64,000 nt of DNA from the IMG/VR virus record IMGVR_UViG_3300009129_000005, positions 1 through 64,000 of that record; one strand, given 5' to 3'. The stretch is from a virus. The notes beneath the pieces were generated by a model. It was given only the letters and a program-made list of their open reading frames with translations. It was not told where the DNA came from and searched no databases. Both the position numbers and the translations under genes were made by a program. Numbering within the stretch: the first letter of the stretch is position 1; each line of letters starts with the position of its first letter. Positions 6,215-58,617 of this stretch are shown here, piece after piece.

Positions 6215-6223
6215 GTATTTATG
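6215..6223 (-). promoter_or_regulatory. Late promoter box
   Basis: The minus strand reads CATAAATAC, a close match to the T4 late consensus TATAAATA, 23 bp upstream of the ATG at 6192. It overlaps the stop region of the upstream gene. Confidence 0.65.
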
Positions 6224-6908
6224 ATAAATTATAAAATTTCTCTAATCGTTGTGCCCATTTGTTTTCGTATTCTGGAAATTCATCTGGTCCACTTTCAAAC
6301 AGTTGCCATTGGCAGTCACCACTACACATAAAAATAGCGATACGGTCAATTGTAGTGCCATACATTTCATTATGTGCATTTGCATAAGCGGCACCTTGTA
6401 GGAAATAATCTTCAATCCATTCACGTCTTTTGGGTTTATTTGTTTGTTTAAAGTCCATAATAGTAGGCTCTCCTTTATACACACCAACTAAATCTGATGT
6501 ACCTGCATATAGCTCTTTTGCTACTAAATTTACTTCTGTACCCCATATTTCATCTATATCATTTTCAATATTCTCAACCACAACTTGTGCCATTGCTTTT
6601 GCTTGTCTATGAACTATATTATTACCTGGATTATAAGTTTCATACTCACCTAATGCCCAGTGTTCTAATATATTATGCATTACTGTTCCCCTATTAGCGG
6701 CTATTGATGTAATACGTTGGGCTTCTGCCTCACCTACACGCTTACGCCAGGCGGCAAGTCCAGCACGTTTTTCTGCTGGTAGAGTATTACTTAATATTGT
6801 TGTGACACTTGGAACTGGATCGCCCCATGGGTTTTGATATAGACGTTTTCCGTCTACACTAGTTCTTTTAAATTCTTGATAGGGGTAAGGGCTTTTAATG
6901 GTTGGCAT
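6219..6908 (-). CDS. PD-(D/E)XK exonuclease, RecB/Cas4-like
   Basis: A 229-aa nuclease of the PD-(D/E)XK superfamily. It shows an upstream His motif (MHNILEHW near residue 77), the catalytic GTSDLVG followed by PTIMDFKQTNK (D-x(n)-D-x-K core, about residues 137-156) and the downstream QGAAYA motif. Such nucleases occur in T4-like marine phages and process DNA ends in recombination or host DNA degradation. It is preceded by a strong promoter whose -10 lies 6 nt before ATG 6908, and no Shine-Dalgarno is visible, so the mRNA may be leaderless. Confidence 0.85.
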   Translation of the reverse strand: MPTIKSPYPYQEFKRTSVDGKRLYQNPWGDPVPSVTTILSNTLPAEKRAGLAAWRKRVGEAEAQRITSIAANRGTVMHNILEHWALGEYETYNPGNNIVHRQAKAMAQVVVENIENDIDEIWGTEVNLVAKELYAGTSDLVGVYKGEPTIMDFKQTNKPKRREWIEDYFLQGAAYANAHNEMYGTTIDRIAIFMCSGDCQWQLFESGPDEFPEYENKWAQRLEKFYNLS

Positions 6909-6914
6909 AGAACA

Positions 6915-6943
6915 ATTATACTACTATTATGATAAAATGTCAA
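6915..6943 (-). promoter_or_regulatory. Early promoter, predicted leaderless start
   Basis: TTGACA (6943-6938), 17-bp spacer, TATAAT (6920-6915) on the minus strand. The hexamer ends 6 nt before ATG 6908, so transcription should begin at or next to the A of the start codon. It overlaps the 3' end of the SGNH gene. Confidence 0.8.
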
Positions 6944-7685
6944 CGACTCTAGGCAGAATATAATTATCAAATACCCATTTATTAGCTGTTGGACTCCAGT
7001 GATCGTCTTCTGGTGAAATTGTAAGACCTGCTTCAAATAATATCTTGTTTTGCAGAACGACTGGTTCTTGTGGTGACTCGCGATTCTTATTCATCTGTTT
7101 ATGTATTCTTTCAGTAATATTAAATACTTGCCATAATCTCTGGTATGCACTATCTTCACTATCACCTGATAAATTTGGCTTCATTAATAACGAAAATTTT
7201 ACTATATGCTTAAAATTATAAAGTGAATGCATATTTTCATACCATTTCTCTTTATAATCTATATTTTGTTCTGACGCACCTTTATATTTTAATACGTCAT
7301 TGAAACTATTTTGTACACTAACTGGTATGTCTTTATCATTAAAATGACTAGTACTGATATGCAGTGAACCCCATGCTACATTTTCACAATTTAATGTAAA
7401 ATAATTATCATCAATAGTAGTTACAACAAAAGAATGTGGATCATCACCAGTCAAGTCCAGCACTCTATGAGGGAATGTTTTATTAATTAAGATAACATCT
7501 ATATTTCTTATTTTTGCATCAAGCAAACATATCTGATAAAAATCATATCCTCGTCCGCCTATTGCATAATTATAATATTGATGTTGTGGGAAATGTTTTG
7601 CTAAAAGATATGTCCAGTTATTCTTTCCTTGGCCAGCCTGATCATATGATGCGTAACTATCCCCTATGAATGCTACTTTAAGCAT
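6927..7685 (-). CDS. SGNH/GDSL-type hydrolase-like protein
   Basis: A 252-aa protein. It shows the block I motif FIGDSYASY (residues 6-14, nucleophile Ser in GDS), a Gly-rich IGGRGYD block near residue 43, and a C-terminal DDHWSPTANKW segment in which Asp and His fit the catalytic D-x-x-H block V. The family hydrolyses esters, including acetyl groups on surface polysaccharides, but the substrate cannot be read here. It lies 11 nt after speD. No signal peptide is evident, so it is either cytoplasmic or carried in the virion. Confidence 0.75.
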   Translation of the reverse strand: MLKVAFIGDSYASYDQAGQGKNNWTYLLAKHFPQHQYYNYAIGGRGYDFYQICLLDAKIRNIDVILINKTFPHRVLDLTGDDPHSFVVTTIDDNYFTLNCENVAWGSLHISTSHFNDKDIPVSVQNSFNDVLKYKGASEQNIDYKEKWYENMHSLYNFKHIVKFSLLMKPNLSGDSEDSAYQRLWQVFNITERIHKQMNKNRESPQEPVVLQNKILFEAGLTISPEDDHWSPTANKWVFDNYILPRVVDILS

Positions 7686-16442: not shown

Positions 16443-17844
16443 AACTATTACTTCTTTTTAGCATACTGCGTAATTTATCATGTCCCTCTATTGTATTATC
16501 TACAATACTATTTTCTGCAATATTTTTTTCTTGATGTGTTATTTTGTTCTTTGCTTTAATTTTTTCAAACATAGCACTAGGTCCTTGCATTGAAGTTCCT
16601 TTATCCTCGTCATCTAAATCACTTATACGCAATCCCGATATATCAAATTTTAAGTCTACTTTTTGTCCTACACCACTACTACTACGTGTTTTCATAAATT
16701 GTACTTGATAACGCCCACGTTCACGCATTGCTTGACTTGTAAATATGCCAATTACATTATCTGCTGTTTGTACTTTACTTAAACCACCTGCAATATGAGA
16801 ATGATCAAACTCTACTTCTTCTACTGCTGATCTATTTAATTGAGATGCTGTAGCAAACAATATATCATGTTCCAATGCAAAATTACGCATTTCTTCTGAT
16901 ACAAACTTATCTTTAATATATAAATCACTTGGATTTACCCTACTTTGAGCTGGCATCATAAGATCTAAATAGTCAACACATACTGCATCTATTTTAATTT
17001 CATTTTTAACTTCGTATTCACGCAAATAACTAGTAACACTATTAATTGTAATACCATTAGGAAGTTGTACAATTTGCAATTTACCAGCCTTTTTGCCTTT
17101 CATTCGTACTTTTAAATCTACGTCATCTTTATTTTTAAATACTTCACGTGTATTGTATCCAGTAATCATACTATCTAATCGCATACTAGATAATTCTTCA
17201 CTAAGTTCTAAAGTAATATAAACAACATTTAATCCAGCAACCGACCAGTTAAGTGCTAAGTTCTGCAAGAATAAACTTTTACCACCACCAGATGGTGCGG
17301 CAAATATGTTTAGTTCTCCTCTATTAAATCCACCATATAATTTATTATCAATGTCTCTCCAACCTGTACTTTGTGCTCCTCGTTGATTACGAACACGTTC
17401 AATACGCTCTGCTGGTGATTCCCAATAATCAGTACCCATATGTTTAGCAAGACCAATTTGAACTGCTTCTTTAATTTTTCGTTCAACTGGCCCGTAGTCA
17501 CCCTTTTCAAGCAAATCAGCACTTGCTAAAATTGCCGCTTCTAATGCTTTGTGTTTACAAAATGTTTCAAACTCATCTATAAACCATGTTTGATGCCTAT
17601 TATCAACATCTTTAAGTTTTTGTAACTCTAAACCAGTTGTTGCTTTAATTTGTTCTAATGTAGGTAATGCACTATAACCAGACGCATGTTCTTGTATAAA
17701 TTCTACACCTTTTCGTAATTCTCTATCAAAATACGATGAATCTATAATTCCATTAACTCGAGAAAATAAATCTTTATCTTGAGCTAAAAATTCAACAAAC
17801 AATCGTTGTAAGTCTAGGTTATATTCTTTAATTTGTTCTTTCAT
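16441..17844 (-). CDS. 41: Replicative DNA helicase, DnaB-family (T4 gp41)
   Basis: A 467-aa hexameric helicase. The N-terminal ~150 residues are the DnaB-like helical domain. The RecA-like motor has Walker A APSGGGKSLF near residue 185, ITLELSEE (helicase motif 1a-like) and Walker B IDAVCVDYLD. The start is ATG 17844, which overlaps the primase stop (ATGA); an upstream TTG at 17850 is unlikely. Gene order primase-helicase gives coupled expression of the primosome, and a separate promoter sits inside the primase gene. Confidence 0.93.
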   Translation of the reverse strand: MKEQIKEYNLDLQRLFVEFLAQDKDLFSRVNGIIDSSYFDRELRKGVEFIQEHASGYSALPTLEQIKATTGLELQKLKDVDNRHQTWFIDEFETFCKHKALEAAILASADLLEKGDYGPVERKIKEAVQIGLAKHMGTDYWESPAERIERVRNQRGAQSTGWRDIDNKLYGGFNRGELNIFAAPSGGGKSLFLQNLALNWSVAGLNVVYITLELSEELSSMRLDSMITGYNTREVFKNKDDVDLKVRMKGKKAGKLQIVQLPNGITINSVTSYLREYEVKNEIKIDAVCVDYLDLMMPAQSRVNPSDLYIKDKFVSEEMRNFALEHDILFATASQLNRSAVEEVEFDHSHIAGGLSKVQTADNVIGIFTSQAMRERGRYQVQFMKTRSSSGVGQKVDLKFDISGLRISDLDDEDKGTSMQGPSAMFEKIKAKNKITHQEKNIAENSIVDNTIEGHDKLRSMLKRSNS

Positions 17845-18854
17845 TTGCAATACTTTCTCATTAATAATTCGATCTTTGTTGGATTTCGTTCAGCACTATT
17901 TATAATACTCTTTATTGTATACAATCTTCCGTATTTTGTCAAGGCATCTGATGCATCTTTTGCATCTTTCCATTCTGGAAAAGAAACATTCCATCCATGC
18001 TTTATTGCCGCCTTGCACATTAACTTACCTGCTTCATCTGCGTCAGGTAATACAATAATACGTTTATTTAAACTATGCAATATGTCTGCTTGATCATCAT
18101 TTATATTGTTACTGCCTATTGCACAACCATCTGTTACTATTGCATCAAGTTGTCCTTCAGACACAATAACAACTTCTTTGTTATGTGTTTGTCTATCTAA
18201 GCCATACACAAAATCACTTTTAGGTTGCTGATTATAGTATTTAGGCATTTTTTCAGGAATGTTATCTCCTGCCCATCGTGCTGTATAACCAACTACTTTA
18301 CTTTTATATGTAAAGGGTAATATAAATCTTTTATTAACTCTACCTTGTTGTTTACTTGGACTCCACATAAACCTATCATCAGTAATATCAAACCCACGAT
18401 CAGTTAAATATGTTGCCGCCGCTGTCCAATCTGCATCTGGGTTAGTAAATTCCATAAACGGTTTAGCATCTTTTGGTAATTCTTTTTCATCCCAATCAAT
18501 AACTAAATTTTTACGCCTTTTAGTTTTTATTAATAACGTTGCTACATCTTGTTCACGTAATAATTCAAGTTGTATACGTTGTATATCAGCTTCATCTGCA
18601 CCCAATGCTGTTAGTAATTGCTTTAATCTTAATGATATTCTACTTTGTGGACTCCAACCTGTTTTAAAATTACAATTAAAACAATTATACTGAAATTTTT
18701 CTTCATCAAAATGAAAACCACCTCTACCTTTTGTGTCCGGTCTACTTTGACCATTTCTTACACACATTGGACAGTTACCACTAATCCAACCACTAGGATT
18801 AGATCGCCAGTTAGTAGGAACCAGGGCTCTGACGTAATTATTCATTAAAGTCAT
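17841..18854 (-). CDS. 61: DNA primase (T4 gp61)
   Basis: A 337-aa primase. Residues about 26-62 form a zinc-binding domain (CPMCVRNG then YNCFNCNF, two CxxC pairs). A TOPRIM domain follows, with VVIVSEGQLDAI (catalytic Glu) near residue 210 and IIVLPDADEAG near residue 246. It precedes and overlaps the helicase gene. The promoter -10 is 6 nt before ATG 18854 and there is no Shine-Dalgarno, so translation may be leaderless; an alternative ATG at 18845 is in frame. Confidence 0.93.
   Translation of the reverse strand: MTLMNNYVRALVPTNWRSNPSGWISGNCPMCVRNGQSRPDTKGRGGFHFDEEKFQYNCFNCNFKTGWSPQSRISLRLKQLLTALGADEADIQRIQLELLREQDVATLLIKTKRRKNLVIDWDEKELPKDAKPFMEFTNPDADWTAAATYLTDRGFDITDDRFMWSPSKQQGRVNKRFILPFTYKSKVVGYTARWAGDNIPEKMPKYYNQQPKSDFVYGLDRQTHNKEVVIVSEGQLDAIVTDGCAIGSNNINDDQADILHSLNKRIIVLPDADEAGKLMCKAAIKHGWNVSFPEWKDAKDASDALTKYGRLYTIKSIINSAERNPTKIELLMRKYCK
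17914..17942 (-). promoter_or_regulatory. Internal early promoter for gp41
   Basis: Inside the primase coding region: TTGACA (17942-17937), 17-bp spacer, TACAAT (17919-17914) on the minus strand. The predicted start is about 60 nt before the helicase ATG. The same spacing as intergenic early promoters makes chance less likely. Confidence 0.6.
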
Positions 18855-18860
18855 GTGTAT

Positions 18861-18889
18861 ATATTACACTCTAACTATGATTTTGTCAA
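18861..18889 (-). promoter_or_regulatory. Early promoter of primase, predicted leaderless start
   Basis: TTGACA (18889-18884), 17-bp spacer, TAATAT (18866-18861) on the minus strand. It ends 6 nt before ATG 18854. The -35 lies within the end of the upstream late gene. Confidence 0.75.
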
Positions 18890-19697
18890 GTGTTCCTGCG
18901 GCTTGTGTATGTTTTGTTCTGATGTGATGAACGTTTGTTCTAAATGTCCAAGGATCAATGCCTGTGTGAGCTGTATATGGATAAAATGGTTGTGTATATG
19001 AACCTAATGTAATAATAAACCAGTCAGATTCTACTGGATTCTCACTTAAAGCACCTTCTACCCAAAAGTTACCCGTATACCCTGTTCCATATACTGCTAA
19101 TGTAACAAGCCCATTTGGTTTATTATAATAGCCTGTTGCTTTTAAGGCACTGCTATAATAGTATGTGTCTGATCCAACTACTTGTGTAGTAAACGTATCA
19201 TTTATTTGTGTGGTAAGTGGCAATGCATCGCCTTCTTCAGAACATTCAACTGTAAAGTTAGGACGCATATTTAAATCACAAAACAACGGTAATACTAATC
19301 CTGTATCACTTGTATAACTGAATACAAGATCATATAGTCCTTGTGAAAATAATGCACTTTCGCCTACTGTTAATACAACTCTAATACTACCAGTATCATA
19401 ATCAGTTATGATTGCTTTTTTACTTACTACTGTTGACCTATCTAATCTACTAATAAAAGATGCATTAACTGTAACACCTTGTAACATTATTGGTTTTCTA
19501 TCTTGATTTTTTACAAAAAAGAAAAACTGAGAATCAAACCCACGAAATAATTTTAAAAATCTGTAATTAAGTGGACTATTTACTGATGTGCCTCTAGCAC
19601 TGGCGTATTTTCCTAGTCCAGGTGCTGACCCGTGGTCTTCTAATGTGTATAAATCACCTACTTGGTTGATATTATATGTTGATCCGTAATTTGACAT
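18864..19697 (-). CDS. Virion structural protein, unknown
   Basis: A 277-aa beta-rich protein with an aromatic-rich start and middle (YNINQVGDLYTLEDHGSAPG, RGFDSQFFFFVKN). The layout (N-terminal short motif, then Ig-like strand pattern) suits a neck, tail or baseplate structural protein. It has its own late box and is flanked by replication genes, so it is a late gene embedded in an early region. I do not recognise a T4 equivalent. Confidence 0.65.
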   Translation of the reverse strand: MSNYGSTYNINQVGDLYTLEDHGSAPGLGKYASARGTSVNSPLNYRFLKLFRGFDSQFFFFVKNQDRKPIMLQGVTVNASFISRLDRSTVVSKKAIITDYDTGSIRVVLTVGESALFSQGLYDLVFSYTSDTGLVLPLFCDLNMRPNFTVECSEEGDALPLTTQINDTFTTQVVGSDTYYYSSALKATGYYNKPNGLVTLAVYGTGYTGNFWVEGALSENPVESDWFIITLGSYTQPFYPYTAHTGIDPWTFRTNVHHIRTKHTQAAGTLDKIIVRV

Positions 19698-19724: not shown

Positions 19725-19760
19725 AAAATTTCCCAAAAATTATTTGGCTAAATAGAAGTA

Positions 19761-20132
19761 ATGCAGACGAAACATCAGAAACTACTAGACGAATATCCAT
19801 TTTTAACCGTTATTGAATATGCAGGCAAAGAGTATCTTGGCGTAGTCCAGAATATAGATAGTCACGTAGCCAGTGTATATATCTACGAGCGTCTTAGACA
19901 TAAAGAAGAACGAATTAGATTTTTACAATTAGGTGAAGAATGGTGGTGGGAAACAAATAGAAAATTACCTATTAATATTGCATTAATTAATAGATGGGAC
20001 TTTGCTTATTGTGTTATGAGTTTTAATGTAAAACAAATGGAAATAGTAGCAGGACCAGAAGTTAGATTAAGTAACAGCATCACTAAACGTATCAAACGTA
20101 GAAGTATTAACCTTGTAAAGAAAAACCCTTAG
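19761..20132 (+). CDS. Plus-strand conserved phage protein, unknown
   Basis: A 123-aa protein, isolated on the plus strand between minus-strand genes. It is aromatic and basic with a beta-rich start (FLTVIEYAGKEYLGVVQNID) and a RWDFAYCVMSFN segment; the C-terminus is Lys/Arg-rich. No family is recognised. Its last 26 nt overlap antisense with the 3' end of the DnaE-like gene. A late-like GCTAAATAG lies 5 nt before ATG and no Shine-Dalgarno is seen. Confidence 0.65.
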   Translation: MQTKHQKLLDEYPFLTVIEYAGKEYLGVVQNIDSHVASVYIYERLRHKEERIRFLQLGEEWWWETNRKLPINIALINRWDFAYCVMSFNVKQMEIVAGPEVRLSNSITKRIKRRSINLVKKNP

Positions 20133-22626: not shown

Positions 22627-24078
22627 TTATTGCCAATCTACTTTGTCAATAGTAAATGGATAATTCGCTTCTTTGTAAAATTTCTTACGTTGTGTAAGAT
22701 GTCTTTTACTAAATTTTGCTGAACTAGTAATATCCCATATTTGAACATTATCTTTATCTTCAGCTCTTCTTATTCCACGACCAATGCTTTGAATAACTCT
22801 AACAAAACTTTTGCCAGGCTCAATGAGCACTAAATTAAAAATACGTGGAATGTTAATACCTACTGCCGCAACTCCATATGTTGCTACAACAATTTGATTA
22901 GTTCCTTCGTTAATATCATCATAATGATCTCTACGATCAGTTGTTTTCATTGACCCACTAACAAAGTTAGCATGTGGTAGATTAGTACAAATTAATCCAC
23001 CTGCTTTAATTCTATCTACTAAGACAAGTGTATTACCTGATTGAGATATTTTATCAATTAATCCACTTATATGCTTCATACGTTCTTTATTAGTAGTAAG
23101 ATACGTTAACTCACTTTGATAATTATTGTATTCAGCAAATTCTTTTAACTGAATTACATTAACATGACATTGACTAAGTACATCTATTTCTTGTAATTTA
23201 CTTGCACTAAGTTTATTAGTTACTTCACCTAGACATGCCTGTAAACTAACTTTTTCATGATCTGCTTTTGGAATTGTTCCTGTAAGTCCCCAACGAATTG
23301 GTACATTTGCAAATTCCTTTGTTAATAAGTCTTTGAGTACATCTGCTTTAGCCTGATGTACTTCATCTACTATAACACAAACTACGTCATCTGTAAAGTC
23401 CTGTAAACTAAGATCACTAAGTCCATCTCGGAATCTTTTTCTAATACTGTTTAAACTCTGCCACGTGCAGATAGTATGGGTCCGTCCTATATCTTTCTTG
23501 TCGCCAAAGTAAACGCCGACATCTAGTCCTAAATTCGCGTAATCGTCAGAAGTTTGCCGAACCAAGTCTTTATTTGGTACAATAACAATTGACCTTCCAT
23601 ACTTTTCTGCACGTTCAGAGAGTGCGGCCGTAATAAGTGTTTTACCTGCTCCTGTAGCAATTTCTTGCAAACAATGAGGTGTATTTAAAAATTTGTTAAT
23701 ACATTCAATTTGATAATCACGTAATGTAATCTTTTCACCAGCTAATTGGTGTTTTTTCGGCCATACTTTATGTTGAAATGTTGTTTCATCTACATGAGCA
23801 AACCGAAAATCATATACATTTCTAAGGTCATTAACATCTATTTCATAACCTTGATTCATTATAATGGGTAATACTCGATCAAGTAGATTAGTGTAAGTTA
23901 TCCCGCCAACTGTAAAATAGCTCGTACACCCATCCCATCTACCTAATTTATATGCTGGTACATGAAATGCATACGGAAGAAAGAACTTTAATTCTTTCTC
24001 ACATTTTCTACGGGTGGTGATATCTAAACCTTCTACTTTACAATTTACTTCATCTCTTAAAGTAATTTTACATTTCAT
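22627..24078 (-). CDS. uvsW: RNA-DNA/DNA helicase UvsW
   Basis: A 483-aa superfamily 2 helicase. The N-terminal ~110 residues match the UvsW DNA-binding domain. Motor motifs are ATGAGKT at 141-147, VIVDEVHQAKA (DEVH box), GLTGTIPKAD (motif III) and the C-terminal QSIGRGIRR (motif VI). UvsW unwinds R-loops and branched DNA and switches T4 from origin- to recombination-dependent replication. It has its own early promoter and a clear Shine-Dalgarno (AAGGAT). Confidence 0.93.
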   Translation of the reverse strand: MKCKITLRDEVNCKVEGLDITTRRKCEKELKFFLPYAFHVPAYKLGRWDGCTSYFTVGGITYTNLLDRVLPIIMNQGYEIDVNDLRNVYDFRFAHVDETTFQHKVWPKKHQLAGEKITLRDYQIECINKFLNTPHCLQEIATGAGKTLITAALSERAEKYGRSIVIVPNKDLVRQTSDDYANLGLDVGVYFGDKKDIGRTHTICTWQSLNSIRKRFRDGLSDLSLQDFTDDVVCVIVDEVHQAKADVLKDLLTKEFANVPIRWGLTGTIPKADHEKVSLQACLGEVTNKLSASKLQEIDVLSQCHVNVIQLKEFAEYNNYQSELTYLTTNKERMKHISGLIDKISQSGNTLVLVDRIKAGGLICTNLPHANFVSGSMKTTDRRDHYDDINEGTNQIVVATYGVAAVGINIPRIFNLVLIEPGKSFVRVIQSIGRGIRRAEDKDNVQIWDITSSAKFSKRHLTQRKKFYKEANYPFTIDKVDWQ

Positions 24079-24104
24079 AAAAGTTTATATCCTTTAGTAG
24101 TTAT

Positions 24105-24133
24105 ATAATACACTATAGTATAAGAAAAGTCAA
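24105..24133 (-). promoter_or_regulatory. Early promoter of uvsW
   Basis: TTGACT (24133-24128), 17-bp spacer, TATTAT (24110-24105) on the minus strand, leaving a ~20-nt leader with a ribosome-binding site. Confidence 0.7.
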
Positions 24134-25080: not shown

Positions 25081-25128
25081 TTTTATTAACTATACTTATA
25101 GTATACAGTAAGACGTCTTACTTGTCAA
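25081..25128 (-). promoter_or_regulatory. Early promoter with palindromic operator, copy A
   Basis: TTGACA (25128-25123), 17-bp spacer, TATACT (25105-25100) on the minus strand. The spacer contains the perfect 16-bp palindrome AGTAAGACGTCTTACT (25107-25122). The whole 48-bp block is identical to 48247-48294. A second dyad TATAC-TTATA-GTATA overlaps the -10. The layout suggests a dimeric repressor or activator site between -35 and -10. Confidence 0.85.
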
Positions 25129-25752: not shown

Positions 25753-26496
25753 TTATATTTCAAGGATTTTTACCCTATTAACCATGGTTTCTTTGGCATT
25801 TGTGTACTTGGATAGCTCATGTTTATTAACAGTACCACGGATTTTAATGGTTTTATTAGAAATAATATCACTAATATCTGGTTGATCTCTCCACCAAAAC
25901 TTAATAATGTCTTTTTTAGCATAAACTGTAGTAATCATATATATGTCACTAGTTTGAATATACTTAACATCTAGTACTTTTACACTCAGATCGTATCTTT
26001 TGCTTTTTTCACCAAAATATTGACTACTATGCTTTAATGAAGCCATACTATCTTCTACTTCTTCACGTTTTTTATCAATACTTACACTATGAGGCAAACT
26101 AGCAATAATGCTTATAGCAAATTTATTAACATCTACGTCATTTAATACTTTTGCAACATTTTGCTCAAAATTGTTAAGATTATTAGTCATTTTCTTAAGC
26201 ATTAACTTACCATTAATACTATCAATAAGAGTATTAGCCTCATCATATTGTTCTTGTGTGAATTTATGCTTTGTATCTAAATATTGTGCCATTATGACAG
26301 TTTTGTTGTCAAATGTCTCTATAGGGTCGATATCTGGATTACTGTTATCCGTATATCCTTGCCCAGATCTGATAAAACCTTGTTTATTATATACCGCGAT
26401 AGCGGCACACATTACATCAGTAACTGTAGCATTAGGAAAAGGCATTTTTTTAGTCATTTTAGACTCCACTGGTATTATTAAATCACTATCAAACAT
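25753..26496 (-). CDS. Early protein with OB-fold-like C-terminus, unknown
   Basis: A 247-aa protein. The middle is helical (NNLNNFEQNVAKVLNDVDVN), and the C-terminal ~60 residues (TIKIRGTVNKHELSKY, then KETMVNRVKI) resemble the G-T-V-K-x-H ... T-x-L-x-R-V segment seen in several phage early proteins with an OB-like fold. It lies under a promoter with a near-copy of the shared operator and just after uvsX-uvsY-like genes. Function unknown. Confidence 0.65.
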   Translation of the reverse strand: MFDSDLIIPVESKMTKKMPFPNATVTDVMCAAIAVYNKQGFIRSGQGYTDNSNPDIDPIETFDNKTVIMAQYLDTKHKFTQEQYDEANTLIDSINGKLMLKKMTNNLNNFEQNVAKVLNDVDVNKFAISIIASLPHSVSIDKKREEVEDSMASLKHSSQYFGEKSKRYDLSVKVLDVKYIQTSDIYMITTVYAKKDIIKFWWRDQPDISDIISNKTIKIRGTVNKHELSKYTNAKETMVNRVKILEI

Positions 26497-26510
26497 TTAT
26501 TTATAAGTAT

Positions 26511-26539
26511 ATTATATGGTAAGATGTCTTACTTGTCAA
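26511..26539 (-). promoter_or_regulatory. Early promoter with degenerate palindromic operator, copy C
   Basis: TTGACA (26539-26534), 17-bp spacer, TATAAT (26516-26511) on the minus strand. Spacer arms GTAAGA/TCTTAC match copies A and B, with TG instead of CG at the plus-strand centre. The -10 is only 14 nt before ATG 26496, so the leader would be about 8 nt. Confidence 0.75.
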
Positions 26540-29541: not shown

Positions 29542-32500
29542 TTATGAAACTTTTCTTCGTAAACCAGTTAATATCGTTTCAGCAATGTTTTCAGTTTCAA
29601 CTTCTTTTTCTTTTGCTGGTACTTTATTCTTCTGATCCAAGTATTTTACAATCTTAGCCATCATAATAACATGCTGATTTGGCAAGTTATACAATTCACT
29701 AGATATTTGACTTAGTAAATTAAATACTTCGTCATTTTTACTATTCATTGCGAGATAAGATAACATTGACACTAACTTAGCCATTGCACCCTGTTCACCT
29801 GAGTATTTAATTGGATCTTCATTGTCAGGATGTTCAGGATCATTTGGATCAATGTTAAGCTGAAAATCTTCCTTGTCTTTAATCATATCGTATACACGAT
29901 TGATATTAGTTTTAGTTAGATCTGTCATGCTATCTTTCTCTTTTACAATACGGGCTACTGTTTCTAAGACCGCATCCATATTCGCAGTCTTAAATGTATT
30001 GTACATGAACTTGTCAGTTATGTCAACCGCTTCTTTATCATTTTCTTCTACAATCGCAGTAGATTGAGCCTGATAGGCGTTATAACCTCTAGAAGTTTGT
30101 AAACGTTTAACTGTACTCTTAAATTCTTTTAATTTCTCTTTAATAGTTTCAACGATATTTTCATTTCCTTCGTTAACTAATTTGTGTGAACGCACATGTC
30201 TCAAAAATTGAGTACATTGCGACACTTCTTCAGATAATTTTATAATTGATTCACCAATTGCATCATATGGTGTCCCACCATGGCTTACATGATTGGCCAT
30301 AGCTCTTGCACCTTGTAAATATTTAAATGGGAATCTAAATCTTTCACCAGCACTATTTTCTACAAATAATGCTTTAATATTTCTACTTCTTGCACCGCGT
30401 TTTTCTTCATTTACAGCCGCTGAGTGCCTAATAATAAGTTTAGTTGCCTCAGGTAATTGTATATAACTTGTCTTAATACTTCCTGTTGCACGTGAATACC
30501 CTTCCATAATTATTTTATGGTTTTTATCATTTTTGTCATGAACATCTGCTACAATAGCATCACCAAATCTAGATAAAACTACTATATCACTTGATTCAAC
30601 TAGAGTTATTTCACTTGGGTCAAACTCTTCATCTTCTTGTTCTTCTGTTGCACCTTGTACAAGATGACCTGGAACATAACCTGCTCTATCAAGCATATCT
30701 TGTGGAGTATAAGTAACACTACCTTCTCTGTTAATAGTATCAACTGCTTCTTGAGCAAAACCCATATAATCTTCTTCTTGTGAGAAGAACCAACTCATAA
30801 AGTCTTTGAAACTTACTTTTAATTCGCCAGCTTCAGTAACTGTTTCTTCACCATAAAGACCACGCCTCTCATCTCTACGACGCTGTAATTCTTCATATTC
30901 TGACTCGTCTTTGTCTTCTTCGTCATCACCATAAAGACCGTGCTTCACATCTCTACGATGCTGTTCTTTTTCATCTTCGTCTTGTTCTGTTTTATTACTT
31001 TCAAACATTTTTGAGTAATCTGATGAGTATTCTGCAATATTTTCACCTGGGAATAACACGTTAAATAATGCAGGGTCTTTTGATATTGAAACCTGGAAAT
31101 AATATATCAAACTATCTCTGTCTTGAGTATCCATATAGTCTGGTTGCATCATATCTACAACATCCATATCGCCAGCATCCATCATATCATCTAGATGATT
31201 AACAAATTCTTCACCTTCATCTGGATAATCTTCTGGATCATAATCAGTATGTTTTATTATTGCCGCTCTAACATTTTTAATGTGTGGTAAAAGTTGAGCG
31301 TGTGTAACATCATCTCTACCAGCTTCAATAATCTTCTGGCGTTCGCCATCTTTGACTGGCCTTATTTCAAAGGCATTTTCTCTCCATTTACCTGAGTCTC
31401 TATATTTTTGAACAATTTTCTCTGCATCATCATATGTGACCCATCCTTGATGTACTTTAGCACCAGCAATCCAAACACCGTATTGCTTCTCTTCTTCTAC
31501 TAACTTAACACCTGCTAATTCTTTTAATCTTCCAACTGCTTCTTTCATATCATATGCTTCCAAGTGTGCTACACCTGATGCCTGCATACCTTGTTCACTC
31601 CATTTAACATCTCTACCGACAATTTTACTAATACCGGCTTCAAATCCTTTATCTGTATAAATTTCCCAAGGACCATTATGTTCAACGTGTACTTCATACC
31701 ATCCATCATCGTGCTGTTCAACTGTAATATCTCCAACTGTTACATGATCTGCTTCCCACATTTCATCTTCAAGCCAAATACTATCACCTGCTAATTCAAC
31801 ATCTTTATTTACTTTTATTGTTTTATGGCCTTCGCCTGCTTTTGTATTAAATTCTGTTAATTCTTCTTCTGTTGATTCTGAATTAAAAATATTCTTATCA
31901 CCTATTTCGTTATTAGTTTTGCCATCACGTGGAACTTCAGTAGGTTCACCATCTGGAATTTTACTTACGTCAAACTCACCTGCTGGTGAATCATCACCTC
32001 GTTGACGTTTAAGATCTGGATCTCTTGGATCCATACGTCTAAACGGATGAGGACCTTGCTCTAGAGCAAAGTCAGGATACATTTCAACTGCTTTAGCATA
32101 AATGTCTGGATGATCATTTTTTAGTTTAGTCTTGTGTTCTGTATTTGCTTCATCAGTTAATCCTGCCATACGAGATTCCATATCGCCTGCCCACATTTCA
32201 AGTGACCATTGTTCTTTATCTTTATCAAGTTGCGGGTGCATACTTGCAAGACCATATTTTGGAACTGGAGCTGAGCCTTCAATATCTGCACCTTGTGGTG
32301 GCATTTCTGCTTCGTTCCATTCATCATATGTAAGTACTTTGCCTGTATCACCGTCTGAATAGTTTCCTTCTCCTGGATTATAATAAATTACACGACCCGA
32401 ATGAGTCGCAATAGGACCATACTGCTTTTTATTTGCTGGATATTTTTTTGGATCTGGCTCTGGCAAACTGCGATCCCAATTTACATTTCGTCTGCTTCGA

Positions 32501-33185: not shown

Positions 33186-34740
33186 ATAATAAACTAAAAG
33201 GCATTGGTTCCATGCCATCGGAATCTTCAAAATCATCATTTAAATAATCAAATGCTTCTTCTTCATATTTAGATACTTCCATACTCATACGTACAATTAA
33301 ATTAACTGCCATTACAAGGTCATCTGTTTCACCAGATTTTGCAGAATAACTATTACCTTTTGCTATAAATGTTTTTAATTCTCTTAATAATGGTTTACTT
33401 GCTACTTCTAATTTTTCTGTTTCTACCCAATGTTTTAACTTTGCACAAGCAGATATTTTGGCTTTGTGTGTAGTAGTAAACCCTCTTCTATAGCGTTTAG
33501 CATTACCATGTTGCCTTGTTTCAGTTAAAAATGTTCCTGGAAAATTTTCTTCGCCTTGTTCTTCTACAACAACTAATGCGGCTTCACCTAAGGTATTGTT
33601 CTCTACACTGTAGTAAATTTCACAATCACCGTTAGATTCAGTATCAATATGTTGTGCTATTTCTCGCAAAATTTTTATCTGTCCTTGTACAGTTGTTCTA
33701 TTGTGCATCCATTCTGCTATTTGTTTCATACCTGGCATACTATATACTTGTATAGCACTATTATCTCCACCTGTACCTAAACTAGGATCAAGTCCTATCA
33801 TATACAATTTACCTTTAGCAACTGGCGAATACCAGCGTACCTGTCCAGATATAGCGTATGGATCACGTGCTTTCATATTAGCAAGTTTAATACTATCAAT
33901 TAATGTTTCATCATACGCAATAAATTCACATTTATGTTCACGTCTAAATCTTTCTTCACCTATTTTACCATATTCAAGATCTGCCCATTCTTGATCTCTT
34001 TCTGGATGTCTTTCCCATGTAGCTAGATAATGTGCAAATCCATTTACGCCAGTATCTGTTTCAATACCATATTCATCAATGTTTTTATTCGCATCTCGCC
34101 AAATTTGTGCAAACTGATCATCATCCATATTAGGTGTGCTTGTAATAATACATTTACCACCTGTTGCTAATGTGGGAGACAGTGAAGTCCAAAATTCTTT
34201 TGCTACATTTGGACGGACAAATGCAAACTCGTCTAAATATGCTAATGAGATACTTAAACCTCTTCCTGTATTTTCTGTTGTACTTTGTGCAATAATACGT
34301 GAACCATTATCAAACTCTAAACTACCTTTGTTGTATGCTGTTACACCAGCACGTATATAATCTGGTAATGTTTCGTATGAGAATCGTACACGTTGCATAA
34401 TTTCTGATGCACCTGCATATTTGTGTGCCGCTACTAATATAGTTTGATCTGGATTAAACATTGCATACCATAGCAAATATCCTGCCGCACAAGTTGACTT
34501 ACCCATTTGTCGTGCCAGCATATTAATACTGTATCTATTGTTGTGATATACGTCAACTAATTCGTCTTGAAAGTCATATAAATCAAATCTTAACCTGCCT
34601 TTTACAGGATGTTGAATATAACAATGCTTACTCATAAAGTATTTGGGATCATCTGCACATCTAGCAAGTTCTAAAAGTTGCTCTTCTGTGTACTTTTCTC
34701 TTCTATACGGAGTTTTTGTTAATTTAGTATCTACTGACAT
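33184..34740 (-). CDS. 17: Terminase large subunit (T4 gp17)
   Basis: A 518-aa packaging motor. The ATPase domain has ARQMGKST at 76-83 (Walker A), LAYLDEFAF (Walker B with catalytic Glu) and ITSTPN (coupling motif). The C-terminal RNase H-like nuclease begins with MIGLDPSLGTGGD (first catalytic Asp). The start is ATG 34740, overlapping the upstream stop (TAATG) and preceded by GGAG; an upstream start at 34761 is not needed. Length is slightly shorter than T4 gp17 (610 aa). Confidence 0.95.
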   Translation of the reverse strand: MSVDTKLTKTPYRREKYTEEQLLELARCADDPKYFMSKHCYIQHPVKGRLRFDLYDFQDELVDVYHNNRYSINMLARQMGKSTCAAGYLLWYAMFNPDQTILVAAHKYAGASEIMQRVRFSYETLPDYIRAGVTAYNKGSLEFDNGSRIIAQSTTENTGRGLSISLAYLDEFAFVRPNVAKEFWTSLSPTLATGGKCIITSTPNMDDDQFAQIWRDANKNIDEYGIETDTGVNGFAHYLATWERHPERDQEWADLEYGKIGEERFRREHKCEFIAYDETLIDSIKLANMKARDPYAISGQVRWYSPVAKGKLYMIGLDPSLGTGGDNSAIQVYSMPGMKQIAEWMHNRTTVQGQIKILREIAQHIDTESNGDCEIYYSVENNTLGEAALVVVEEQGEENFPGTFLTETRQHGNAKRYRRGFTTTHKAKISACAKLKHWVETEKLEVASKPLLRELKTFIAKGNSYSAKSGETDDLVMAVNLIVRMSMEVSKYEEEAFDYLNDDFEDSDGMEPMPFSLL

Positions 34741-35435
34741 TAATATCTCCCAAACGCCCATTCACGTTCTTTACACCACCAACATTTTTTACAATGTGTA
34801 ACCATTTTATCAGGTTGATCTGTATTTTCTTCAGCATGTTGTTCACAACTTCTTGTATATGGAAATAATTCTTCTATCATATTAAAATGCTCATATAAAT
34901 GTGCTACCATACGTTTATCAACTGCCATAAGTGGCGTCCAACGTGTAATTCCTGGTACATATTCCTTTAATATAAGTCTACCATGTCCTGGATCACGTGG
35001 TTTATGTCTATTATTTATAGTATCAAACTTAACATCTAACGGAGGATTTTGTGTAGTACCATGTAATGTAAAGGTTATACCATGCAAATCTTGTTGCATT
35101 TTTTCTGTATCATCAAGTTCTGATCTAATTTGATCGGTACTATAAAATGTATAATGACTTTTAATTAGTTTTGTTCCTGTGAGCTGGAGTACTCTATTAA
35201 GTACTCTAGTACTCCAGTTAGCGTTATACCACCCCTTAATAGGGTTAGCAGACGTTATAACATGCAGTTCTGCCTCTGGTATATATTGCTCACAGTATTG
35301 GATTAGCATCAATAATAATATGGCACTATCTGCACCACCTGAGATGTTAATACAAATCTTGTTATGAGGCTTTGGTACTGTAAATTCTATATTCTGACCG
35401 AAATTATCCGTATATGTTTCAATAGGCCTTTTCAT
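34740..35435 (-). CDS. PP-loop ATPase, QueC/PAPS-reductase-like
   Basis: A 231-aa enzyme of the PP-loop adenylating family. The signature ISGGADSAILLL has SGGADS at 32-37, a basic substrate loop follows, and the C-terminal C-x(n)-H-C-K-K-C-W-W-C cluster resembles the zinc site of QueC-type 7-cyano-7-deazaguanine synthases. It sits between the small and large terminase genes and is coupled to gp17 by TAATG. Substrate unknown: nucleobase or DNA modification, or tRNA modification, are possible. TATAAATAG lies just before its ATG. Confidence 0.75.
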   Translation of the reverse strand: MKRPIETYTDNFGQNIEFTVPKPHNKICINISGGADSAILLLMLIQYCEQYIPEAELHVITSANPIKGWYNANWSTRVLNRVLQLTGTKLIKSHYTFYSTDQIRSELDDTEKMQQDLHGITFTLHGTTQNPPLDVKFDTINNRHKPRDPGHGRLILKEYVPGITRWTPLMAVDKRMVAHLYEHFNMIEELFPYTRSCEQHAEENTDQPDKMVTHCKKCWWCKEREWAFGRY

Positions 35436-35439
35436 ATTA

Positions 35440-35448
35440 CTATTTATA
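35440..35448 (-). promoter_or_regulatory. Late box directly at the start of the PP-loop gene
   Basis: Minus strand TATAAATAG, an exact match to the T4 late consensus. Transcription would begin at or next to the A of ATG 35435 (6th base after the octamer), predicting a leaderless late mRNA. Confidence 0.5.
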
Positions 35449-35453
35449 AAGAA

Positions 35454-35485
35454 AAACGGCGTAGTTAATTAAAACCACACCGTTT
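35454..35485 (-). terminator. Intrinsic terminator downstream of scaffold-like gene
   Basis: A 13-bp stem with two G-U pairs, AAACGGTGTGGTT/AACTACGCCGTTT, followed by T-rich sequence on the minus strand. It separates the 293-aa gene from the PP-loop gene. Confidence 0.75.
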
Positions 35486-44440: not shown

Positions 44441-44449
44441 ATATTTATC
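44441..44449 (-). promoter_or_regulatory. Late promoter box
   Basis: Minus strand GATAAATAT, 25 bp before the ATG at 44416, overlapping the end of the dNMP kinase gene. Confidence 0.65.
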
Positions 44450-45086
44450 TGACTATTTTGTCTAGGGTATGTTTTCTGAGTTCTTCAAGTGTAGATGTGT
44501 TTAAAAGTTCAATATCAAATTTCCAGCCTGCCCAACTCCATTCACTTTTGTGTACTTCTGGATGTCTAGCCTTCATTCCATCTACAATATGCATTGGCTT
44601 TTTTGAAACTTTTGCTTCATTAAGAATAGATGCGTTGTTCCACCATTCTGGTTTATCATATCGCCATACAACTGCTGTTTTTCCGCCGAGATTTTTAATA
44701 GCTTGAAGTTCATTAAAAAATCTGCAATCACTTATAACAACACTTTTTTCTGTACTTACAATTTGACGTTCACAAGCGGCAACCCATATATCAGGATGAA
44801 AGTGCGTTCTTAATGCATCTGTACCTACTTGTTGTAATGCAAGACGTGGAGTAAAATTTGGAATTTTTAAACGAGTGGCCCACCATTCATCAACTGTTTC
44901 TCTCCATACTCTGCCTTCTGCGGTGTTGCCTTCTAATAGTATTCTATCCCATCCAAATATATTAGCACATGCATCTTTTAATACACCTGCAAAACTAACT
45001 CTTTCAAATCCTTCTTCAATTAAGAATCCTGCCGCTGTATCTTTTCCGTGCCCTATAAGTCCACATATACCAATTATTTGTTTCAT
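44445..45086 (-). CDS. 1: Deoxynucleoside monophosphate kinase (T4 gp1-like)
   Basis: A 213-aa P-loop kinase. Walker A GLIGHGKDTAAGF is at residues 9-21, and the acceptor-site region TPRLALQQVGTDALR and VVISDCRFFNEL match gp1-type dNMP kinases, which make dNDPs from dNMPs for phage DNA synthesis. Early promoter; its -10 is 6 nt before ATG 45086 and there is no Shine-Dalgarno, so a leaderless mRNA is predicted. Confidence 0.88.
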   Translation of the reverse strand: MKQIIGICGLIGHGKDTAAGFLIEEGFERVSFAGVLKDACANIFGWDRILLEGNTAEGRVWRETVDEWWATRLKIPNFTPRLALQQVGTDALRTHFHPDIWVAACERQIVSTEKSVVISDCRFFNELQAIKNLGGKTAVVWRYDKPEWWNNASILNEAKVSKKPMHIVDGMKARHPEVHKSEWSWAGWKFDIELLNTSTLEELRKHTLDKIVR

Positions 45087-45092
45087 GTACGT

Positions 45093-45121
45093 ATTATACT
45101 AAATTATTACTAAAGTGTCAA
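45093..45121 (-). promoter_or_regulatory. Early promoter of dNMP kinase, predicted leaderless start
   Basis: TTGACA (45121-45116), 17-bp spacer, TATAAT (45098-45093) on the minus strand. The hexamer ends 6 nt before the ATG. Confidence 0.85.
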
Positions 45122-56353: not shown

Positions 56354-56695
56354 TTAATATCCAGGAGATTCAACCCAGCCTAGACTGTTATCACCTTGAT
56401 AAACTGATTCAACCCAAACATAAGTTTTACCATCTGTTGGATATGTTATAGGTGGTTGCCAATCATGATTATCATCTAATGTCCATGAATCATGTGGCTG
56501 AGGCCTAACAAATACTTCATTTGTTTTATCCCAAGTAAAGCCTATATCGGCTTTTTGTTTTCTAAAGTTATTATTATAACTATATTGTACCCAACGAAAC
56601 TCATCACCTCTTACACCAGTGTTAATAAAATCTTTTTCAGCAACGATTAGTTCTGTGACAATATTGTTATTATCTATTTTTGCAAAATGTGACAT
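56354..56695 (-). CDS. Tail-fibre-region accessory protein
   Basis: A 113-aa protein with HFAKIDNNNIVTELIVAEKD at the N-terminus and many Trp residues (WDKTNEVFVRPQPHDSW, YVWVESVYQGDNSLGW). Such short proteins accompany tail fibres in marine phages, as chaperone or distal tip part. ATG overlaps the upstream stop (TAATG). Confidence 0.7.
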   Translation of the reverse strand: MSHFAKIDNNNIVTELIVAEKDFINTGVRGDEFRWVQYSYNNNFRKQKADIGFTWDKTNEVFVRPQPHDSWTLDDNHDWQPPITYPTDGKTYVWVESVYQGDNSLGWVESPGY

Positions 56696-58617
56696 TATGT
56701 TTCATACCTTATAATTACAATTCCAGAGCCGCCGGCACCGCCATTACCATTACCGTGAGCGCCACCACCTCCTCCACCGCCAGTATTAGCACCGCCATTA
56801 CCTGCTGTAGCAGTACTGCTGGCACCATTACCACCTGCGTTTCTTGCTGTACCACCACCGGTACCACCACTAGAAGATTCAGCAGATCCGCCTCCTCCTC
56901 CGCCTTCGCCGCCGTTGCCGGCCGCGGAACACATACCGCCGCCTCCGCCGCCACCTGCATAAAAGTATCCGTTTCCATCTAAATTCCATAGTTCGCCACC
57001 ACCGCCACCGCCAGATGGGCCACCTTGAGCTCCATCTCCACCGACAGCCGCTTTACCGCCACCGCCTCCTGCCGCGTGGCATCCTGTTTGGTTTCCGTTA
57101 CCACCATTATTACCTTGACCTGCTGTACCTTGACCTGGCGTACCAGATGATGCTCCTGTACTATGTCCTTCACCACCACCTGAACCACCAGCGGCGCCTG
57201 TACCATATCCTGATCCGCCACCGCCTCCACCAATTGCTGTAGCAATGCTTCCAAAAGAAGTGTTGCCACCATTACCTGCTACACCATTTGTATGTGTAGA
57301 ACCCGAGCCGCCACCGCCAATAGATATTACGTGAGCTCCTGTACTAATAGTATAATTTGTTGCTGTTAACATACCACCAGCACCACCGCCACCACCAATG
57401 TGGCTTCCTCCGCCACCTCCGCCTGCGACAACTAGGTAATCAATAGGACCTCCTGTTGTAACAGTAAATGTTCCTGATGATGTAAATGTGTGCATAGTAT
57501 AACTTCCATATGTTGATGTAGTGCCACCCGATGCTGAACCACCCCATCCGCCATATAAATCTCCTTCGCCCTCTCCTATATTACTCCAAATATTATTATT
57601 AGTTGTAGCATCGGTACAAACATAAGATTCACCAGAAGAAGAATTAATCCAAAGATGTCCTACTGCTGATGGGTTAGCTGTTATAGTTGGGTCTGAAGAT
57701 GATACTGTAGCATCTGTTAAACTAGCAAGTGTTGATGAACCTGATGATATACCTGTTAAGGCAGAACCATCTCCAGTAAATGCTGTTGCACTTACGGTTC
57801 CTGATACAGTTACACCAGAAGCAGTTGTTTCAATTTTCTTAGAGTTGTCGTAATATAAATCTACAGAGCCATTTACATCTGCTCTGATAAGAACTTCACT
57901 ACTAGCTTCGTTTACTACATAAAAGTTACCATTAGTTCTCAATGCTAAATTACCAGTACCTTTATCTTTTATTATGCTATCAGAACCATCATGATAAATA
58001 TTAAAATCATCACCAGTACCCATTTGTATTATACCATTATCAGCAAGAATAATTTCATTAGCACCCATATTAAGATTGCCTGACATAGTTCCGCCAGTTG
58101 TCATTAATGCACCAGATGATGTTACATTTGCTGTATCAGTTACGTCTGCTAAAGTCTCAATAGTATCTAATTTATTCTTTAATGTATTTGTAAAGTTATT
58201 TTGAGTTAATCCGCCGTCACCTACTGAATATGTAGTATCTGTGTAATTACTAGCATGTATAGTACCTGCTGATGCTTGTGCCCAATCAACAATACCAGAA
58301 ATATTAGTTAAAGCAGAACCATCTCCAACAAATGAAGTTGCTGTAACTGTACCTGCTGTAAGATTACCTTTAACAAGACTTAAATCTGTGGCATCAACAC
58401 TATTAACTGAGGTTGATCCTAAACTAATTGAATTTATTAAAAGAAACTCATCTGTACTGCTATCTTTAACAAGACCTGCATATGATGTAGCTCCTATTTT
58501 ACCTAAAAATCCAACATCAACCGCAGATGATCCGTCTTTGTTCAGTATAAGAAGTGGGTCAGTAAACCCAACCTCTGTACTTATTATGTTAGTTGATTGT
58601 ATTCCTCTAAAAGCCAT
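56695..58617 (-). CDS. Tail fibre/adhesin with glycine-rich C-terminal domain
   Basis: A 640-aa fibre. The N-terminal ~340 residues carry fibre repeats and predicted beta strands. The C-terminal ~230 residues are a Gly-rich adhesin domain (GGGGGSHIGGGGGAGG; GGEGGGGGGSAESSS) closing with GSGIVIIRYET. Gly-rich domains form sandwich tips in phage adhesins and vary to change host recognition. GC-rich compared with flanks due to Gly codons. Late box upstream. Confidence 0.88.
   Translation of the reverse strand: MAFRGIQSTNIISTEVGFTDPLLILNKDGSSAVDVGFLGKIGATSYAGLVKDSSTDEFLLINSISLGSTSVNSVDATDLSLVKGNLTAGTVTATSFVGDGSALTNISGIVDWAQASAGTIHASNYTDTTYSVGDGGLTQNNFTNTLKNKLDTIETLADVTDTANVTSSGALMTTGGTMSGNLNMGANEIILADNGIIQMGTGDDFNIYHDGSDSIIKDKGTGNLALRTNGNFYVVNEASSEVLIRADVNGSVDLYYDNSKKIETTASGVTVSGTVSATAFTGDGSALTGISSGSSTLASLTDATVSSSDPTITANPSAVGHLWINSSSGESYVCTDATTNNNIWSNIGEGEGDLYGGWGGSASGGTTSTYGSYTMHTFTSSGTFTVTTGGPIDYLVVAGGGGGGSHIGGGGGAGGMLTATNYTISTGAHVISIGGGGSGSTHTNGVAGNGGNTSFGSIATAIGGGGGGSGYGTGAAGGSGGGEGHSTGASSGTPGQGTAGQGNNGGNGNQTGCHAAGGGGGKAAVGGDGAQGGPSGGGGGGELWNLDGNGYFYAGGGGGGGMCSAAGNGGEGGGGGGSAESSSGGTGGGTARNAGGNGASSTATAGNGGANTGGGGGGGAHGNGNGGAGGSGIVIIRYET

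Follow-up and report, generated by a model that had tools for sequence, protein, structure and literature searches.

Does a T4-like phage express part of its genes from mRNAs that begin directly with the start codon? The question arose in the window, the whole stretch of 64,000 nucleotides analysed here (bases 1–64000 of a 123,388-base IMG/VR virus record, genome label G000), where three early genes have the −10 hexamer of their predicted promoter only 6 nt away from the ATG. Bacterial leaderless ('TA-led') genes have been surveyed in BMC Genomics 2011 (PMC3160421) and leaderless translation has been reviewed (PMC9031893). No close isolate of the phage was found; its primase and deoxynucleoside monophosphate (dNMP) kinase have their nearest counterparts in jumbo T4-like phages, PA5oct among them, and the group showing the geometry described here is T4-like, mostly uncultured and apparently marine. 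G000 carries a gene for a gp55-like late sigma factor at 83535–84449 (phrog_12791, E = 3.5e-91; phrog_234).

Methods

Relatives of each of the three early genes were collected from IMG/VR, their upstream sequences were aligned at the start codon, and distinct sequences were counted. The gap, i.e., the number of nucleotides between the promoter element (−10 hexamer or late box) and the ATG, was surveyed in the window genome and 10 relatives using strict early promoters and late boxes of the form NATAAATA, with ORFs called by a simple length rule. In addition, IMG/VR was scanned for the pattern TTGACA-17-TATAAT-6-ATG, blind to gene content, and the ORFs among the matches listed were recorded.

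Results

Three predicted leaderless early genes

All three genes lie on the minus strand. The exonuclease (phrog_298, 6219–6908) is preceded by TTGACA (6943–6938), 17 nt, TATAAT (6920–6915) and 6 nt before the ATG at 6908, and this promoter (6909–6943) overlaps the 3′ end of ORF 6927–7685. The DNA primase (Toprim_2/phrog_47, 17841–18854) has TTGACA (18889–18884), 17 nt, TAATAT (18866–18861) and again 6 nt before the ATG at 18854, the whole promoter (18855–18889) being placed within the C-terminal codons and the stop of ORF 18864–19697. The dNMP kinase (PF21448/phrog_139, 44445–45086) has TTGACA (45121–45116), 17 nt, TATAAT (45098–45093) and 6 nt before the ATG at 45086 (promoter 45087–45121). 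The coordinates thus match exactly the claim of the initial annotation that the −10 ends 6 nt before the ATG, and the upstream sequences bear out that a Shine-Dalgarno (SD) is absent in all three (3/3). For the primase, an automatic score preferred TGTAAT as the −10 (spacer 15 nt, gap 8 nt); this candidate was rejected, as all relatives keep TAnnnT with 17 and 6 nt but do not keep the alternative. Misread start codons were also ruled out: in the window the three frames are closed by in-frame stops 3–4 codons upstream of the ATG, and the exonuclease and kinase N-termini align residue for residue with SD-led orthologs that begin at the same residue, so the annotated starts are right.

The window genome alone holds three early and two late cases in total, with 3/11 of its strict early promoters at gap 6. 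The promoter survey suggested at the outset does find the pattern here, but within this single genome it is only suggestive, and the weight of the pattern comes from the relatives.

Conservation of the 6-nt gap

Comparison of the spacing with relatives, named in the initial annotation as able to overturn its proposal, found the gap conserved while the neighbouring letters diverge. The 6-nt gap was kept in 75 of 107 distinct upstream sequences pooled over the three genes (primase 15/15, exonuclease 39/50, kinase 21/42), the start codon was ATG in all 75, and the spacer was 17 nt except in 4/75 sequences with 16 or 18 nt. Mean pairwise identity was 0.96–1.0 in the −35, 0.36–0.74 in the spacer and 0.41–0.48 in the discriminator. 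The other sequences (n = 32) were SD-led in 26 cases, some with TTG or GTG starts, and lacked an SD in six (three kinase, three exonuclease), where the gap was 7 or 5 or the start was unclear. Besides its 21 leaderless upstream sequences, the kinase accounts for 18 SD-led ones and two at gap 7 (L050 and L065); gap 7 also occurs in the uvsW of G021 and the exonuclease of L139, and gap 5 in the exonuclease of L169.

Within the upstream gene that contains the primase promoter, a Leu/Val/Ile codon varies, always ending in TT, and is followed by GAC in 17/17 sequences, yet GAC makes up only 26% of the Asp codons in the window genome. Amino acid swaps around a fixed TT-GAC speak for selection at the DNA rather than at the protein level, which indicates that the primase promoter is selected as DNA inside a coding region.

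Promoter-to-ATG distances in 11 genomes

Both distance distributions were bimodal in the 11 genomes: early promoters lay exactly 6 nt or 16–40 nt from the ATG, and late boxes exactly 5 nt or 16–40 nt, the longer distances being accompanied by an SD in each case. Early gap 6 held 41 annotated-gene ATGs against 0–7 at any other gap < 16 (its neighbours, gaps 5 and 7, held 4 and 1), while late gap 5 held 59 against 0–6 (6 at gap 4 and 5 at gap 6). When families were counted once, early gap 6 still held 11 and late gap 5 held 44, compared with at most 6 at other gaps < 16. Raw matches numbered 46 at early gap 6 and 70 at late gap 5, versus ~4 and ~19 in shuffled genomes, and the reversed-pattern control returned 1 versus 63 matches (early) and 13 versus 113 (late). 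The gap-6 and gap-5 counts are far beyond chance. An SD match of ≥ 4 nt was present in 2/37 early and 7/59 late leaderless genes, compared with 109/135 and 159/194 leadered ones. The first T of the T4-type late box is variable in the window's clade, as in other T4-like phages.

Predicted leaderless late genes

The PP-loop (QueC-like) gene (34740–35435, minus strand), for which the same arrangement with a late promoter had been proposed, has the T4-type late promoter TATAAATA at 35448–35441, 5 nt before the ATG at 35435 (promoter and gap together 35436–35448). Eight relatives with 72–100% protein identity share the identical geometry, so this proposal was borne out, and the same eight carry the hairpin found 5′ of the promoter, which in the window is terminator-like, has a T run and occupies 35452–35484 (minus strand), directly upstream. 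On the plus strand, the late box GCTAAATA (19747–19754) is followed by 6 nt and gene 19761–20132 (phrog_11637); relatives have 6 or 8 nt. Such gaps would leave a leader of ~1–3 nt, making this gene near-leaderless rather than identical, in line with its first description as close to the arrangement.

Among the products of other predicted late leaderless genes are a baseplate-wedge-like protein, a head-tail adaptor and virion structural proteins, as well as a radical SAM protein and one resembling polynucleotide kinase. In G001 (114,162–114,193) and G004 (31,869–31,907), overlapping back-to-back late boxes face two divergent genes, both predicted leaderless, whose start codons are only ~26 to 33 bp apart.

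Position of the transcription start

Four independent lines agree in supporting the A of the ATG as +1. T4 late boxes have been placed at −13 to −6 (PMC1524935), and by this measure a late gap of 5 puts +1 on that A. The leadered promoters of these phages, in which the ATG has no influence, give corresponding positions, with a purine at position 7 after the −10 in 74% of the early ones (C in 1%) and an A-rich stretch beginning at position 6 after the late box. The base before the ATG is a pyrimidine in 92% of early and 96% of late leaderless genes versus 59% of leadered genes, a bias that fits +1 at the A because a pyrimidine/purine transcription initiator is expected. Start codons (ATG:GTG:TTG) were distributed 41:1:0 in early and 59:2:0 in late leaderless genes; leaderless translation favours AUG, with GUG and UUG being poor in E. 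coli and Caulobacter (PMC9031893). The rarity of SD matches in these genes belongs to the same line. From these sequence features we infer the actual 5′ ends as well as translation from a 5′-terminal AUG.

Gene content and packing

The 20 annotated ORFs sampled among the listed matches to TTGACA-17-TATAAT-6-ATG include a helicase, primases, a clamp loader and a NAD-dependent ligase, together with thymidylate synthase, dCMP deaminases and exonucleases; a DNA/nucleotide-metabolism PHROG was found in 0/10 sampled leadered early genes. A same-strand gene ended ≤ 40 nt from the ATG in 74% of early leaderless versus 4% of early leadered genes. This effect is absent in late genes (40% leaderless, 41% leadered), so tight packing cannot be a general reason for the leaderless state.

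Switching between leaderless and leadered states

The UvsW-like helicase (22627–24078, minus strand), initially cited as a gene with a real leader, is leadered in the window, where TTGACT-17-TATTAT is followed by a 26-nt leader with AAAGGA (24079–24133, minus strand). It is leaderless in most relatives, among them the two closest, G001 and G002 (89% and 87% identical), which have TTGACT-17-TATTAT-6-ATG; compared with them, the window carries ~20 extra nt with AAAGGA downstream of the −10. The description accordingly holds for the window and fails for its nearest relatives. As most relatives are leaderless at uvsW, a leader gained in the lineage of the window phage is the simpler reading of these sequences. 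The kinase, the exonuclease, the head-tail adaptor and others also switch state between groups of relatives.

Further observations

A palindrome (GTAAGACGTCTTAC-like) occupies the −35/−10 spacer of 25/139 leadered and 0/37 leaderless early promoters, with examples at 25128, 48294 and 26539 of the window (minus strand) and in relatives; it looks like a candidate operator, to which a regulator of the phage or of the host might bind. Gene 25753–26496 (minus strand, upstream region 26496–26539) has a strong early promoter at a 14-nt gap and no SD; with a predicted leader of ~8 nt it falls outside both classes, and its true start may lie elsewhere.

A full-length phage IF3 gene (IF3_N and IF3_C) adjoins a phage bS21 gene as an infC-rpsU pair in G002 (56,398–57,200; L336:16398–17200) and also in G004, G008, G009, G011, G018 and G021; the pair was not found in the G000 record, which may be a fragment. 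IF3 and bS21 both act where start sites are chosen. Phage IF3 has already been annotated in RaK2-like jumbo phages, and its pairing with bS21 may be less known. IF3 was considered as a general cause of leaderless use and rejected because its presence does not track such use: G006, HTVC008M and PA5oct have genes with leaderless geometry without IF3, and in RaK2, although RaK2-like phages annotate IF3, late boxes were not enriched at this gap (1 match versus 2 in the control). When the relatives' phage bS21 was used for a host search, the single protein gave no match and the alignment gave remote matches only.

Discussion

The reading we favour, with a probability of roughly 0.86, is that these genes are expressed as leaderless mRNAs, in which transcription would start on the A of the ATG and the ribosome would start at the 5′-terminal AUG without SD pairing. 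In early genes a host-type sigma-70 RNA polymerase would initiate on this A, and in late genes a polymerase with the phage gp55-like late sigma factor would do so, given that the gap equals the distance from element to +1 in both cases (6 nt after the −10 hexamer, 5 nt after the late box). The initial suggestion of a distinct translation mode for a subset of genes is supported by the conserved spacing, the AUG-only starts of the aligned early orthologs and the loss of the SD in the leaderless class, and spacing kept across diverged phages points to a possibly deliberate second way to begin protein synthesis.

Transcription start choice can vary by 1–2 nt, and very short leaders (1–5 nt), read by SD-independent binding or 70S scanning instead of from a strictly 5′-terminal AUG, would account for the few orthologs at gap 5, 7 or 8 and for gene 19761 with its 6 or 8 nt after the late box. 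We hold this to be improbable, as a loose requirement would not yield peaks as sharp as 41 against 4 and 1, or 59 against 6 and 5, and would leave unexplained both the −1 pyrimidine bias and the different optimal gaps of two promoter types. Even less credible is that the promoters are incidental and translation of these genes is coupled to that of the preceding gene on a polycistronic read-through mRNA: early cases do mostly sit close behind a same-strand gene, but the SD is missing precisely where coupling would profit from one, the promoter letters alone are conserved while all around them changes (synonymous positions included), a terminator-like hairpin precedes the PP-loop gene, and some late leaderless genes belong to divergent pairs that have no upstream gene.

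Leaderless mRNAs being the preferred reading, a separate matter is why they would be used. In early genes, a leaderless start would let the full promoter fit in the end of a co-directional upstream gene, and replication genes would be made only from their own promoter, since read-through mRNA lacking an SD should give no translation of them; we offer promoter packing and read-through insulation as a reason with less confidence than the leaderless state itself. It is doubtful that the genes form a regulated translation class that insulates early replication functions, in which the infC-rpsU (IF3-bS21) pair of some members could shift the balance between SD-led and leaderless initiation in the course of infection. 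A real possibility, somewhat short of even odds, is that the leaderless state serves no regulatory purpose, the host tolerating such mRNA while drift through deletion and compaction drops leaders; this accepts leaderless expression and competes with the proposed reason only. Orthologs that switch in both directions (uvsW, kinase, exonuclease, head-tail adaptor) and late leaderless genes packed no tighter than leadered ones suit drift, whereas the predominance of DNA-replication and nucleotide genes among sampled early leaderless genes, against none in ten leadered ones, and the leaderless state of primase, exonuclease and kinase across long divergence do not.

Should 5′-end mapping confirm these starts, two modes of translation initiation, sorted by gene, operate side by side in a T4-like group that is apparently abundant, and the switching among orthologs, once between close relatives, offers natural experiments on the retention and loss of leaders. 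For annotation, an ATG at gap 6 from a sigma-70 −10 or gap 5 from a late box is very likely a true start.

The lambda cI mRNA from PRM is the classic leaderless phage mRNA and starts on the A of its AUG. It is mentioned in both PMC9031893 and PMC3160421; it comes from a temperate phage and concerns a single regulatory gene, whereas the T4-like phages studied here show a conserved set that covers replication as well as late genes. Leaderless mRNA is thus already known, while a conserved class spanning both T4-like promoter types was not found in the open-licence papers searched, nor did any of these describe leaderless genes for pelagiphages or for T4-like phages; in a paper on the marine T4-like phage Melnitz (PMC9004378) the word "leaderless" occurs only inside a cited title.

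Early gap-6 enrichment was seen in none of T4, PA5oct and HTVC008M. The late class uses the same box as T4 late promoters (TATAAATA, gp55; PMC1524935) and the window genome encodes a gp55-like sigma factor; unlike the window's clade and HTVC008M, T4 shows no gap-5 case among its 30 late boxes that lie ≤ 40 nt from the ATG of a gene. PA5oct, which infects P. aeruginosa PAO1, has three late gap-5 candidates (144973+, 180264− and 144688−). Pelagibacter phage HTVC008M (host Ca. Pelagibacter ubique HTCC1062) has eight, for instance at 31119+ and 49747+, sharing a baseplate-wedge-like family with the window genome's gene at 89955, but in contrast to the window's clade it has no early gap-6 gene, its early exonuclease being leadered (gap 31) and its primase at gap 11. 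Early promoters of HTVC008M (NC_020484.1) cluster 7–12 nt from the ATG, unlike those of the window's clade, possibly as a third, short-leader arrangement or through a different promoter geometry. Bacterial TA-led genes resemble the present ones in several respects: TAnnnT lies ~12 bp ahead of an AUG start codon, an SD is missing, and orthologs switch between the leaderless and the SD-led state; the survey of those genes covered cellular genomes, whereas the present cases come from lytic T4-like phages with a strict −35/−10/gap geometry and include a second class driven by a phage late promoter.
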